Assembly (NCBI RefSeq): GCF_030846775.1
Contig: NZ_CP132910.1
Location: 654,001-718,000 of the forward strand
DNA length: 64,000 nucleotides
Direction: 5' to 3'
Source of the DNA: Geothrix sp. 21YS21S-2
GTDB lineage: Bacteria > Acidobacteriota > Holophagae > Holophagales > Holophagaceae
Shown: positions 17,865-45,825 of the stretch, piece after piece
How the letters are laid out: every line of letters starts with the position of its first letter
Position numbering within the stretch: the stretch's first letter is position 1
Notes under the pieces: generated by a model
Databases searched by the model: none
Told to the model about the DNA's origin: nothing
The model's input: the letters and a program-made list of their open reading frames with translations, nothing else
Translations under genes and position numbers: made by a program

Positions 17865-20492
17865 TCAGCCGGGGTTCGTGACCGCTGAGAAGTTCTTGGC
17901 CGTCTGGTCGGCCTGGACATGGGTGTAGACCTTGCTGGCCGGCGTGAAGACGGATCCCGGCTTGGAGGGCGTCACCGTCCCCGACCAGTCGGGGGACACG
18001 CTGAAGCAGTAGTTCCCGTCCCCGTCGGCCACGGCGGTCCTGGTCGTCCCGTCCGTGTAGGTCAGCACCGCCCGCGCCACTCCCGCGTTGCCTGAAATGA
18101 TGTAGGAAGGGGCCACGAAGGAAAGGGGAATCCCGGGACTGGCAGGGTCGGGGGAGGGGAGGCTGAACCAGGTCCCATTCTTCCAATAGCCTGTGACCGT
18201 CACGTCCGCGGTCGTGCTGGCCCCCGTCACGAAGACGTCCTTCCCGGACGCGACGAGGACCGTACTCACCGAGGATCCATCGACCGACAACGGGGGAAGG
18301 ACGACCCAGGCTCCGTTCTTCCAATACCCGGCGATGGATGCACCCATCGTATTGGCCAGGCTGAAGCCCATTGCATAGACATCACTGCCAGAAACGGCCA
18401 GGCTGATGACCATCCAGTCCGTGTTGCTGTCTGGCCGATCGAGACCCGTCCAGATCCCGTTCTTCCAGTAGCCCGGAATCTGCACCCCAGAGGAATCCGT
18501 GCTGAAGCCGCCGGCATAGACGTCATCCCCGTCCACGACCACGGCGGTGGCGGACGATTCCCTGGTGATATCCAACTGGGACAGGGGTCTCCAGACCCCG
18601 TTCCGCCAGTAGCCGGGAACCCCTACGTTGTTGACGTCGCTGCTGTAGCCCGCGGCAAGGACCTCGCTCCCGGAGGTTGCCAGGGCGACCACCAGGGAGT
18701 TCCGGTCACTGGCCAGGGGCGTGAGGCCGATCCAGGCCTCGTTTTTCCAATAGCCCGGAACAACCACACCCGAGGTACCGTTAATGAGGCCTGCGACGTA
18801 GACGTCGCCCCCGGACACGAGGATGGCGGTGGCCTGGGCGTCCCCGCCTCCATTCAGCACCGGGAGGCCAACCCAGGTCCCGTTCTTCCAATACCCTGGG
18901 ACGCTCCCCCCGGCATCGCGCGTGCAGAAGCCGACCGCAAGGACGTCCCGGTCCCGCCCGGACACGGCGAGAGCGGTGACCCATGCATCCTGGCCGGGCT
19001 CCAGGAGCGGGAGATCGAACCAGGTCCCATCAACCCAGTAGCCGGGCATGGACCCTCCGCCGCTATCGCCGGAACCCAGGCCCATGAAGCACCCCGCATA
19101 GCTGGGCGGCACCCTCACCGCGGTCAGGGTGTAGTCCTGGGCCGTCTGGTCGGCCAGGACATGGGCGTAGGTCCGGCTGTCGACCGTGAAGACGAAGCCC
19201 GCAAGGCTCGGGGTGACCGTGCCTGACCAGTCATAGGACACCGTGAAGGCGTAATGGCCTGAAGCATCGGCCGTGGCCGTCTTGGCCGAGCCGTCGGTGT
19301 AGGCCAGGGAAGCCCCGGCACCGCTGGCGCCCAGGGCGCCCGAGATCGTGAAGGTGATGGCCGTCGCCGTGTAGTCCTGGCCGGCCTGATCCGCCACGAT
19401 GTCGGTGTAGGTCCTGGGGGCCGAGAAGGTGTAGCCCGCCAGGGCCGGCGTGACCGTCCCGGACCACCCGTAGGCCACGCTGAAGGTGTAGTTGCCCGAT
19501 CCATCCGCCGTCGCCGTGCCGCCGGAACAGGTCATGAGCACACCCGCAGCGCCCGCGTTGCCGGCGATGATGACGGTCGCCTCATGGACGGTGATCGTCA
19601 GGTCCTGGGTGGTGCTGCCGCCCGTATTGGTCGCCGTCACCGTGTAGGTCGCCAGGGCTGCCACCGCCGTGGGCGTGCCCGTGATCTGGCCGGTGCCGGT
19701 GTTCAGAATCAACCCCGCCGGCAGTGCCGGAGACACCGAATAGGAAACCACCGCGCCGCCCCCGCTGGTGGGGCTGTTGGGGGGGATGGCGGATCCCTTG
19801 GCATAGACCGCAGCGCTGAGGGTGTAGGCCAGGCCGCTGGGCGCAGCATCATTGACGGTGATCGTCAGATCCTTGGTGGTGCTTCCGCCCGTATTGGTGG
19901 CCGTCACCGTGTAGGTCGCCAGGGCCGCCACCGCCGCGGGGGTGCCCGTGATCTGGCCCGTGGCGGTGTTCAGGCTCAGCCCCGCGGGCAGGGCAGGGGA
20001 CACCGAATAGGACACCACCGCGCCGCCCCCGCTGGTGGGGCTGTTGGGGGCGATGGCGGATCCCTTGGCGTAGACCGCAGCGCCGAGGGTGTAGGCCAGG
20101 CCGCTGGGCGCAGCATCATTGACGGTGATCGTCAGATCCTTGGTGGTGCTGCCTCCGGTATTGGCTGCCGTCACCGTATAGCTGGCGAGAGCCGAAACCG
20201 CCGTGGGCGTGCCGCTGATGACGCCGGTGCCGGTGCTCAGGACCAAGCCCGCGGGCAGGGCCGGGGACACCGAGTAGGACACCACCGCGCCGCCCCCGCT
20301 GGAAGGGCTGTTGCTGGCGATGGCGACACCCTTTGCGTACACGGCCGTGTTGAGGGTATATATCAATCCCGTGGGGGGGTGGACCCCTGCTTCACGAAAT
20401 GAGTCGTCACGGCCCAGGCAAGCCGGCATCAAGAAGCAAAGGGTCAAGCCAGCAATATTCGCAATGCAGCGCAAAACGGAAGCGTGCTTCAA
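17865..20492 (-). CDS. Large modular lipoprotein: Ig-like repeats, seven GYW repeats and CarboxypepD-like domains
   Basis: An 875-residue predicted lipoprotein. TTG at 20492 is chosen because GGAGG lies six bases upstream. The signal peptide ends in a lipobox, LMPAC. Order: three near-identical 89-residue putative Ig repeats ('VVSYSVSPALPAGL', 'GTPTAV', 'NTGGSTTKDLTITV'); two domains ending 'WSGTVTPALAGYTF' with 'DYTATA'; seven repeats carrying 'PGYWKNGTW' and 'SGSDVYA' that probably form a propeller; and one final domain like the earlier pair. Such modules suggest surface binding or display. No catalytic residues are evident. The Ig repeats are also DNA repeats of 267 bp. A TPR gene follows. 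Confidence 0.75.
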   Translation of the reverse strand: MKHASVLRCIANIAGLTLCFLMPACLGRDDSFREAGVHPPTGLIYTLNTAVYAKGVAIASNSPSSGGGAVVSYSVSPALPAGLVLSTGTGVISGTPTAVSALASYTVTAANTGGSTTKDLTITVNDAAPSGLAYTLGAAVYAKGSAIAPNSPTSGGGAVVSYSVSPALPAGLSLNTATGQITGTPAAVAALATYTVTATNTGGSTTKDLTITVNDAAPSGLAYTLSAAVYAKGSAIPPNSPTSGGGAVVSYSVSPALPAGLILNTGTGQITGTPTAVAALATYTVTATNTGGSTTQDLTITVHEATVIIAGNAGAAGVLMTCSGGTATADGSGNYTFSVAYGWSGTVTPALAGYTFSAPRTYTDIVADQAGQDYTATAITFTISGALGASGAGASLAYTDGSAKTATADASGHYAFTVSYDWSGTVTPSLAGFVFTVDSRTYAHVLADQTAQDYTLTAVRVPPSYAGCFMGLGSGDSGGGSMPGYWVDGTWFDLPLLEPGQDAWVTALAVSGRDRDVLAVGFCTRDAGGSVPGYWKNGTWVGLPVLNGGGDAQATAILVSGGDVYVAGLINGTSGVVVPGYWKNEAWIGLTPLASDRNSLVVALATSGSEVLAAGYSSDVNNVGVPGYWRNGVWRPLSQLDITRESSATAVVVDGDDVYAGGFSTDSSGVQIPGYWKNGIWTGLDRPDSNTDWMVISLAVSGSDVYAMGFSLANTMGASIAGYWKNGAWVVLPPLSVDGSSVSTVLVASGKDVFVTGASTTADVTVTGYWKNGTWFSLPSPDPASPGIPLSFVAPSYIISGNAGVARAVLTYTDGTTRTAVADGDGNYCFSVSPDWSGTVTPSKPGSVFTPASKVYTHVQADQTAKNFSAVTNPG
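19584..20384 (-). repeat. Three 267-bp tandem repeats inside the lipoprotein gene
   Basis: The Ig-like part of the lipoprotein gene is three tandem copies of a 267-bp unit (89 codons). The recurring ATTGACGGTG-like marker sits at 19584, 19851 and 20118. Middle copies are nearly identical and the outermost copy is more diverged, as expected for expansion by slippage or recombination. Copy number could vary between strains. Confidence 0.85.
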
Positions 20493-20870
20493 GGGTGGCC
20501 TCCAGCCAGAAATTTCACCGGCTCAATTGGCCAATGTTTTTTACTTGATACCTTTTGCAACCTGGCCGATCTTTTCGGCTTATTGCTTAACAAACATGGA
20601 ATTCGGATCGGTGGATTTGTTGAATGGAAACTGGAAGCCACCAGTGGAATCGTTGCCTATTTGGGCCTAAATTATGGCCTGATTGGGCCTTCTTCGGCAA
20701 GGGCCCAAAGGCGATTGTCCTGGCCCGGACCGCACATCTGCGCTTTGCCCTGTCTTTTCCCCGAATTTCTAGTGAAAGGTCGTGAATTCCCTCCGAATGG
20801 GCTATCCCGTTAGGGTCGGCGATGGAAGAACCCTCGCGAGAACACAAGGCCGGGCGTGGCTGCGCATGGA
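20493..20870. other. Gene-free AT-richer region upstream of the lipoprotein
   Basis: No convincing coding frame is seen. The stretch around 20530-20600 is AT-richer than its surroundings and probably holds the promoter of the lipoprotein gene, but no clear -35/-10 pair could be defined. It runs into the 171-bp repeat array. Confidence 0.5.
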
Positions 20871-20980
20871 GATTCCCCTCCGGGCCGCGGCACTGGCTGC
20901 GCACGGGCATCTCCCTTCGGGAGACCGGCGGCCGCGCGGGGCGCGTCCGCCTTGCCCTACCTGCGCACCATTGCCGATTC

Positions 20981-21046
20981 GAATCCTTCCTCCCCAACCA
21001 AATCAGGCCCCTTCCGGGGCCCGTTTTGGTTGGGGAGGAAGGATTC
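20981..21046. repeat. Long hairpin, copy 1
   Basis: A 22-bp perfect outer stem, a 3-nt internal loop on each side, a 6-bp inner stem and a TTCC tetraloop. The outer stem matches the acceptor/T-arm 3' strand of the neighbouring tRNA-Gln. Confidence 0.85.
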
Positions 21047-21151
21047 CCCTCCGGGCCGCGGCACTGGCTGCGCACGGGCATCTCCCTTCGGGAGACCGGC
21101 GGCCGCGCGGGGCGCGTCCGCCTTGCCCTACCTGCGCACCATTGCCGATTC

Positions 21152-21217
21152 GAATCCTTCCTCCCCAACCAAATCAGGCCCCTTCCGGGGCCCGTTTTGG
21201 TTGGGGAGGAAGGATTC
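21152..21217. repeat. Long hairpin, copy 2
   Basis: Same structure as copy 1, displaced by exactly 171 bp. Confidence 0.85.
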
Positions 21218-21322
21218 CCCTCCGGGCCGCGGCACTGGCTGCGCACGGGCATCTCCCTTCGGGAGACCGGCGGCCGCGCGGGGCGCGTCCGCCTTGCCCT
21301 ACCTGCGCACCATTGCCGATTC

Positions 21323-21388
21323 GAATCCTTCCTCCCCAACCAAATCAGGCCCCTTCCGGGGCCCGTTTTGGTTGGGGAGGAAGGATTC
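21323..21388. repeat. Long hairpin, copy 3, overlapping the tRNA 3' end
   Basis: Same structure, but the right arm is the real 3' end of the tRNA-Gln gene. The inner GC stem followed by TGATTT on the minus strand is therefore the likely intrinsic terminator of the tRNA. Confidence 0.8.
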
Positions 21389-21443
21389 GAACCCTCGATA
21401 GGCAGGATCAAAACCTGCTGCCTTACCACTTGGCGACTCCCCA
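21369..21443 (-). tRNA. tRNA-Gln (anticodon TTG)
   Basis: A complete cloverleaf can be drawn: acceptor TGGGGAG with CTCCCCA, D-arm, anticodon stem GCAGG/CCTGC with loop TTTTGAT (anticodon TTG, reading CAA), T-arm with GTTCGAAT, discriminator A and encoded CCA. It charges glutamine, directly or via Glu-tRNA amidation. The 3' end is copied in the adjacent repeat array. Confidence 0.95.
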
Positions 21444-45164: not shown

Positions 45165-45825
45165 TAGCAAAACCAGGAGACCCCCCGGCTCTGCCGGGGT
45201 GGCAGTAGAAGTTTGACATTTCAGGGAGTCCATCTTGGAATCTCCGATTGTGAGCCGCCAAGCACACGAAAGGAGGTCCAAGATGGACTCGTCGGAAAGT
45301 CTAAGCCACTCCCGGTGGGAGTGTAAGTACCACGTGGTGTTTATCCCAAAATGTCGAAGAAAGACGCTCTACGAGAAGTTACGACCACATCTGGGTGAGG
45401 TGTTCCGGCAACTGGCCGCGCAGAAGGAATGCCGGATCGAGGAGGGGCACCTCATGGCCGATCACGTCCATATTCTGATTTCGATTCCGCCAAAGTATGC
45501 CGTGGCGCAGGTGATCGGGTTCATCAAGGGTAAGAGCGCGATTCACCTCGCCCGCGTGTATGGGGAGAGGAAGCGCAACTTTGTAGGCCAGAACTTCTGG
45601 GCGCGCGGCTACTTCGTATCGACAGTGGGCCGAGATGAGACGGTCGTGCGCGAATACATCCGAAAACAGGAAAAGGAGGACGAGCGATTTGAGCAACTGT
45701 CCCTGTTTCGCTGACCAGGCACCTCCAAGGTGCCCATCCTATGATTCGGGGCCGCGTTAGCGACCCCGACCAGCCGCTTTGAGCGGCTCACGTTTTAAAC
45801 CCCCCGGCTCTGCCGGGGGATGTCT
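45165..45825 (+). mobile_element. IS200/IS605-family element, tnpA only
   Basis: The single transposase gene is flanked by matching hairpins of the type used by HUH transposases: CCCCGGC-TCT-GCCGGGG at 45183-45199 and CCCCCGGC-TCT-GCCGGGGG at 45801-45819. A third hairpin (GCCGC-TTTGA-GCGGC) lies inside the right end near 45774. No terminal inverted repeats or target duplication are expected for this family. The outer limits are approximate. The right end abuts the stop codon of the LtaS-like gene. No TnpB gene accompanies it. Confidence 0.85.
45283..45714 (+). CDS. tnpA: IS200-type HUH transposase TnpA
   Basis: A 143-residue Y1 transposase. The HUH motif is His61-Val-His63 ('DHVHILIS'), and the catalytic Tyr125 lies in 'YIRKQ' with Gln129. 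It excises and inserts single-stranded DNA. The start at 45283 has AAAGGAGG six bases upstream; an earlier in-frame Met is less well placed. The length is normal, with no frameshift, so the element may be active. Confidence 0.95.
   Translation: MDSSESLSHSRWECKYHVVFIPKCRRKTLYEKLRPHLGEVFRQLAAQKECRIEEGHLMADHVHILISIPPKYAVAQVIGFIKGKSAIHLARVYGERKRNFVGQNFWARGYFVSTVGRDETVVREYIRKQEKEDERFEQLSLFR

Follow-up and report, generated by a model that had tools for sequence, protein, structure and literature searches.

The 3' ends of tRNA genes are among the commonest insertion targets in bacteria, and the elements that we know to insert there rely on double-stranded att sites, each specific to a single tRNA or to a few. 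The closest known counterpart of the elements analysed here is the rtT repeat family behind tyrT and tyrV of Escherichia coli (RtT RNA, RF00391). The traits held in common are tandem units behind a tRNA (178 bp in rtT), each beginning with the tRNA end (the last 19 nt), an internal GGGGAAGGAT with complementarity to that tRNA end (of 5000 shuffles, 19 matched as well), a structured remainder, and a copy number that varies among strains. In E. coli K-12 (L127, 1286000-1288000), the rtT unit holds a 10-nt exact inverted tRNA-Tyr end. The use of folded DNA as a recombination site is known from integron attC hairpins and from the attP of CTXphi, where a folded single strand offers a double-stranded site to the recombinase.

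The repeat array behind tRNA-Gln(TTG)

The window (the whole stretch of DNA analysed, 64,000 nucleotides at 654-718 kb of a Geothrix genome, G000, that is a single 5.25-Mb contig) contains a tandem array at 20871-21388, with a period of 171, 3.0 copies and 100% identity according to Tandem Repeats Finder, and with three 176-nt matches at a spacing of 171 in the repeat comparison. The array directly adjoins a minus-strand tRNA-Gln(TTG) gene located by ARAGORN at 21443..21369. Read on the tRNA strand, each unit consists of a tRNA 3' end (A), a terminator-like hairpin (t), an inverted tRNA end (A'), a core (C) and a short linker that leads to the next A, and the whole array reads A t A' C A t A' C A t A' C before it breaks off 5 nt into a further A. 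Its features are as follows.

21369..21443, minus strand: intact tRNA-Gln(TTG), CCA encoded (ARAGORN; Rfam tRNA, 62.5 bits)
21343..21368, minus strand: first copy of t, the terminator hairpin of the tRNA (sequence, inverted repeat I2); further copies 171 and 342 bp lower
21320..21342, minus strand: A', inverted tRNA 3' end, 23 nt perfect (sequence, repeat search); more at 21149-21171 and 20978-21000
21227..21319, minus strand: core C, copy 1, a three-way-junction hairpin (model R1 match, 91.6 bits, G000:C1:675227-675319)
21198..21217, minus strand: A, direct tRNA 3' end of 20 nt between copies 1 and 2 (sequence, repeat search)
21056..21148, minus strand: core C, copy 2 (R1 match, G000:C1:675056-675148)
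21027..21046, minus strand: A, direct copy between copies 2 and 3 (sequence, repeat search)
20885..20977, minus strand: core C, copy 3 (R1 match, G000:C1:674885-674977)
20871..20875, minus strand: truncated start of a further A, which is the array end (sequence, Tandem Repeats Finder)

The inverted copy A' is perfect over 23 nt, CCA included (TGGTTGGGGAGGAAGGATTCGAA), the internal direct A copies have 20 nt in common (GAATCCTTCCTCCCCAACCA), and the terminator-like hairpin between the direct and the inverted tRNA ends is AAACGGGCCCCGGAAGGGGCCTGATTT. A sequence-only reading of this locus had described three 171-bp direct repeats abutting the tRNA, stem arms made of the tRNA 3' end with CCA in both orientations, and a direct tRNA end, a terminator and an inverted tRNA end in every unit, all of which was borne out. 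That description missed the rest of each 171-bp unit, about 105 bp, which is a second, larger structured element conserved elsewhere and contains the core C of about 93 nt. The folding energy of a single unit is -114 kcal/mol for RNA (z -9.0 against shuffled sequence) and -74 kcal/mol for DNA (z -10.4); in the latter fold, A' and A form one long stem capped by C, while t folds separately. In an Rfam search, all matches besides the tRNA were chance-level or sub-threshold. A possible leftover of the core at the left edge of the array (20846-20870) is not claimed, because about 6% of random window stretches align equally well. Beside the array, 267-bp repeats (2.8 copies, 88% matches) lie at 19582-20325 within an 875-aa minus-strand ORF (17865-20492).

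Recurrence of the core behind tRNAs of Holophagaceae

Searching this genome and related ones for the unit, as had been proposed, revealed the core behind tRNA-Pro in the same genome and behind tRNAs of 16 anticodons in Holophagaceae. The second array of the same genome lies 4 Mb away behind tRNA-Pro(CGG) and comprises two cores and 2.5 units of 207 bp; its core is 85% identical to that of the tRNA-Gln array, and its t, A' and A belong to tRNA-Pro. With one DNA query, the core was found in 27 of the 77 genomes of the family. Far from being absent from relatives, it was detected in 24 genomes when a covariance model was run on 396 genomes of the phylum, every one of the 24 being Holophagaceae and none from any other family. 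The phage, plasmid and viral collections searched yielded no core match, and carriage on phages, plasmids or viral contigs was accordingly rejected.

Among 73 distinct cores, 46 have a same-strand tRNA less than 1 kb upstream, and 20 lie less than 1 kb from a contig or locus start; no tRNA was detected upstream of another six, and the last stands beside an opposite-strand tRNA only. In that opposite-strand case (L064:32-125, G065:C56), the core lies by tRNA-Ser(CGA), and the tRNA, read backwards, takes the place of A'. There are 44 distinct tRNA-plus-core units, covering 16 anticodons, behind tRNAs for Gln, Pro, Val, Glu, Met, Ser, Arg, Gly, Leu, Asn, Cys and SeC, in which the core starts 28-77 nt downstream of the tRNA on the same strand. 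The order A, t, A', C, A is constant across units, with A' and A matching the local tRNA and C common to all. In 40 of the 44 units, no tRNA of a different anticodon matches A' as well as the tRNA of the unit itself does, and for the direct copy after the core the best fit is the own tRNA in 35 of 44. Most of these units carry no cargo, and the element measures about 170-210 bp. The earlier suggestion of a repeat element born from the tRNA comes close as regards recurrence at many tRNAs, but the shared part is the core, and only the arms, which vary with the host tRNA, are tRNA-derived.

Filled and empty sites were compared at the tRNA-Gln locus of genus g3. Two genomes without the element (G026 and G016) read CCCCAACCA followed directly by ATGCTGTCC (also written as TCCTCCCCAACCA followed by ATGCTGTCCGGGGG), while G009 and G055 carry t-A'-C-A and then continue into the same flank. 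The exchange point lies within AATCCTTCCTCCCCAAC. As in tRNA-targeting integrative elements, what distinguishes filled from empty alleles is a precise exchange within the 3' end of the tRNA gene, together with a direct repeat of that end. In the filled alleles, the first tRNA copy reads CCCCAAC followed by GAA, having lost the CA of CCA; therefore, the exchange does not always restore the tRNA perfectly. In the genus of the window, the tRNA-Gln locus has three units in G000, one in G003 and G005, and none in G001 and G002. The idea of a multiplied attachment site was close in this respect, since the tRNA 3' end is indeed polymorphic for insertion and many tRNAs have the unit behind them. The change between empty and filled states may possibly run as a precise loss via recombination between A copies; because such recombination could delete a unit, the alleles do not by themselves prove the ancestral state of a locus. 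Mean core similarity is 0.690 for different tRNAs in the same genus, 0.638 for the same tRNA in different genera, and 0.618 for different tRNAs in different genera. As likeness follows genus and hardly tRNA, it is probable that the core spread from tRNA to tRNA inside lineages.

Fold of the core and competing explanations

The 24 aligned cores share a three-way junction with a three-step outer stem, a four-base bulge, an inner stem and two arms, in which the conserved bulge is GGTA, followed by an invariant G. In this alignment, 92.3% of the cells are paired (74.0% after shuffling), 26 of the 35 pairs show double changes, and covariation is 0.444 against 0.129; one inner helix is off by one column in model R1 and alignment A2, and its pair statistics come from alignment A1 only. 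A c(GNA)g triloop caps the second arm in 59 of 77 cores, whereas tetraloops predominate in the terminators at these loci (53 of 81). Triloops of the c(GNA)g type are exceptionally stable in DNA. Moreover, the outer core helix has G.U in only 21 of about 1090 paired cells; for the adjacent tRNAs, the count over acceptor and T stems is 38 of 575. The triloops, set against the tetraloops of the terminators, and the rarity of G.U in the outer helix suggest that selection acts on a folded single DNA strand rather than on RNA, although helix 3 of the core, with about 5% G.U and no G.U avoidance, counts against this reading.

These features bear on the possibility that the array is an rtT-like set of small-RNA genes, in which C and its arms would be released from tRNA readthrough transcripts and act as RNA. 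The closest architectural match to the array is the RtT array behind E. coli tyrV, and the conserved structure of C would suit an RNA function as well. Like RF00391 members, the array consists of tandem units starting with a tRNA 3' end, and the RtT covariance model gives weak matches on two overlapping stretches of it; their score of 19.7 bits, however, is far under the gathering threshold of 45. Besides the DNA-type triloops and the scarcity of G.U, further points against it are the terminator that separates C from the tRNA and arms that correspond to the tRNA rather than to the core. We thus consider this explanation unlikely, and the production of stable small RNAs, one of the options of the sequence-only reading, is disfavoured yet conceivable.

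Our tentative preference, to which we give somewhat less than an even chance, is that the array represents three tandem copies of a gene-less mobile element that lives at the tRNA 3' ends of Holophagaceae, uses its folded strand as the attachment site and depends on a recombinase supplied in trans. The working form, we infer, would be single-stranded DNA with A' and A paired to each other, a proposal made because A' has a constant relation to A and both have one to the local tRNA. Folding would give the tRNA end in duplex form, with C as its cap, and this duplex would serve as the attachment site that a recombinase encoded elsewhere could join to the real tRNA end. The core would provide polarity and recognition, t would act as a replacement terminator restoring termination of the tRNA transcript, and tandem copies could arise from repeated insertion or from recombination between A copies. 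Ordinary recombination logic fails to explain how A' as well as A comes to match each new tRNA, which counts against this proposal.

The bulge of the core may mark a further point of exchange. Arrays ending in a partial repeat (18 loci) stop from 47 nt before the core to 22 nt into it and never beyond the GGTAG bulge; a few arrays end in a longer truncated core instead, so the stop at the bulge is a tendency and no rule. The bulge is likewise where the core is joined by three nested inserts of 82-107 bp, copies of a second small Holophagaceae repeat running from CTGACTCGG to GAATGGT; at L061:1388-1474, L066:1085-1004 and L119:294-400 this repeat sits exactly between the GG and TA of the core bulge, and it was noted in L227 and L043 as well. 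The GGTAG bulge may be a cleavage or exchange point, with the element boundary shifted from A to between GGTA and G, and distal duplications that end at or before GGTAG may count against a junction in A. In G005 (C158), a gene that we take by eye to be DUF445-like (L114:8412-9732) has its stop codon within GGTAG of a core. This foreign gene was found in one of 12 relatives searched and is joined to the core at the bulge; we initially took it for cassette cargo, which it may be, but a later breakpoint or fusion could equally account for the junction.

Alternatively, the units could be relics of ordinary tRNA-targeting islands, whose repeated integration and loss by tyrosine integrases left att fragments that were then amplified by homologous recombination. 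Direct tRNA-end copies of 17-20 bp are typical of att repeats, and at tRNA-fMet of G001, serial 3'-end copies separate a tyrosine-integrase island from segments with one large ORF each, one of which ends in a truncated core. This locus (L111/L112, G001:C1 about 3985000-3999500) contains two full tRNA copies and two further 3'-end copies, with the truncated core at the end of the last segment, and one large ORF there appears by eye to resemble a DUF4143-type ATPase. However, relics would not have one covarying 93-nt core in common behind tRNAs of 16 anticodons, nor would a matching inverted tRNA end have persisted in them between the terminator and the core, and most units have no cargo. An origin as island relics is therefore improbable.

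Hairpin-templated copying would dispense with a dedicated recombinase: a fold-back of the polymerase at the terminator hairpin would make A', a second switch at C would make A, and the outcome would be a rolling-hairpin concatemer A-t-A'-C-A-t-A'-C. The array is the exact product expected from unrolling a dumbbell with stem A/A' and loops t and C, and A' starts at the end of the terminator and matches the local tRNA. Of the rivals considered, this is the one that explains how arms are acquired for a new tRNA. On the other hand, it leaves unexplained how C arrives at each tRNA, as well as the covariation and the asymmetric conserved bulges of the core, and we regard it as a rather poor prospect. 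An assembly artefact or a chance tandem duplication without function, which the perfect identity of the three copies might have suggested, is extremely improbable and is refuted as an explanation of the architecture, because independent genomes share the same plan with differing copy numbers at the same and other tRNAs.

Candidate enzymes and relation to known systems

The folded-strand element that we prefer requires an enzyme, and none was linked to the elements in the genomes examined. The 171-bp unit is too short for an integrase gene of its own. The absence of a nearby integrase had been pointed out before, and indeed the window has no tyrosine integrase (no PF00589 match), the nearest matches in the genome being at 484 kb and 817 kb. 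An integron integrase is encoded in this genome (TIGR02249, 448 bits, G000:C1:4037607-4038548; gene L172:1072-2055, G000:C1:4037571-4038554), and TIGR02249 exceeds its cut-off in 46 of the 77 family genomes. G001, whose genome is complete and contains arrays, lacks this integrase, and its co-occurrence with the core is weak (present in 19 of the 24 genomes with a core and in 11 of 20 without one). Only in G072 does a core abut intI, at the 3' end of the gene, and a simple search near 15 intI loci, including that of the window genome, found no canonical attC (RYYYAAC ... GTTRRRY boxes); the arms of the elements are tRNA sequences that lack a constant GTTRRRY box. The integron integrase was rejected as the mover on account of this single adjacency, the weak co-occurrence and its absence from G001, and is kept as a candidate only.

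A Y1/RAYT transposase was rejected as the mover because it is absent from most core-rich genomes, with no Y1_Tnp found in G001, G058, G059, G062 or G065. The window itself has a Y1_Tnp (IS200/IS605-type) transposase ORF at 45313-45669, and elsewhere in this genome there are three more full-length copies, each with an in-frame TAG, and one partial copy with an in-frame TAA.

Compared with known systems, the Holophagaceae elements share with REP/REPIN sequences and their RAYT (Y1) transposases the character of short palindromic non-autonomous elements. REP elements carry a GTAG motif, which the conserved (G)TAG of the core recalls; the Holophagaceae elements differ in lying at tRNA 3' ends and in the lack of a Y1 transposase in most core-rich genomes. 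Islands and satellites that integrate at tRNAs have the same target, the tRNA 3' end, and direct repeats of 17-20 bp, but the present elements are about 170-210 bp long and gene-less, and possess an inverted tRNA-end copy and a covarying core. As in integron cassettes, units are arrayed and end in an imperfect hairpin with conserved unpaired bases, a covarying structure and DNA-type loops, and an IntI gene occurs in most of these Holophagaceae genomes. In contrast to cassettes, the units contain no genes, the intI genes tested show no canonical attC motif, the arms follow the tRNA rather than a fixed R box, and the arrays are located at tRNAs instead of attI.

The rtT repeats may belong to the same architectural class as the Holophagaceae elements. 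They differ in that the E. coli matches listed are all annotated RtT sRNA and the K-12 case concerns one tRNA locus, and in having a distinct core sequence, a weak inverted copy and no clear internal terminator, whereas the Holophagaceae core occurs at 16 anticodons with strong inverted copies. The literature searched, with subscription papers on rtT outside that search, contained no description of the Holophagaceae elements. Their recurrence with tRNA-matched direct and inverted ends speaks for a very small mobile element, organised around a DNA hairpin, of a kind not described before. It is possible, if on balance doubtful, that they form a new class of mobile DNA that is gene-less, whose folded-strand arms copy the end of the target tRNA, and that can be retargeted by a change of arms while one DNA hairpin core is kept. 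If true, a small element present at 16 anticodons with matched arms would represent a novel way of retargeting, and recombination of folded strands would extend beyond integrons and filamentous phages. On the best reading of our analysis, the family would stand close to rtT repeats and tRNA-targeting elements, resembling integron cassettes in its working without being a member, and the long-puzzling rtT repeats of E. coli, which have the same anatomy, may in turn be explained by a folded-strand element.
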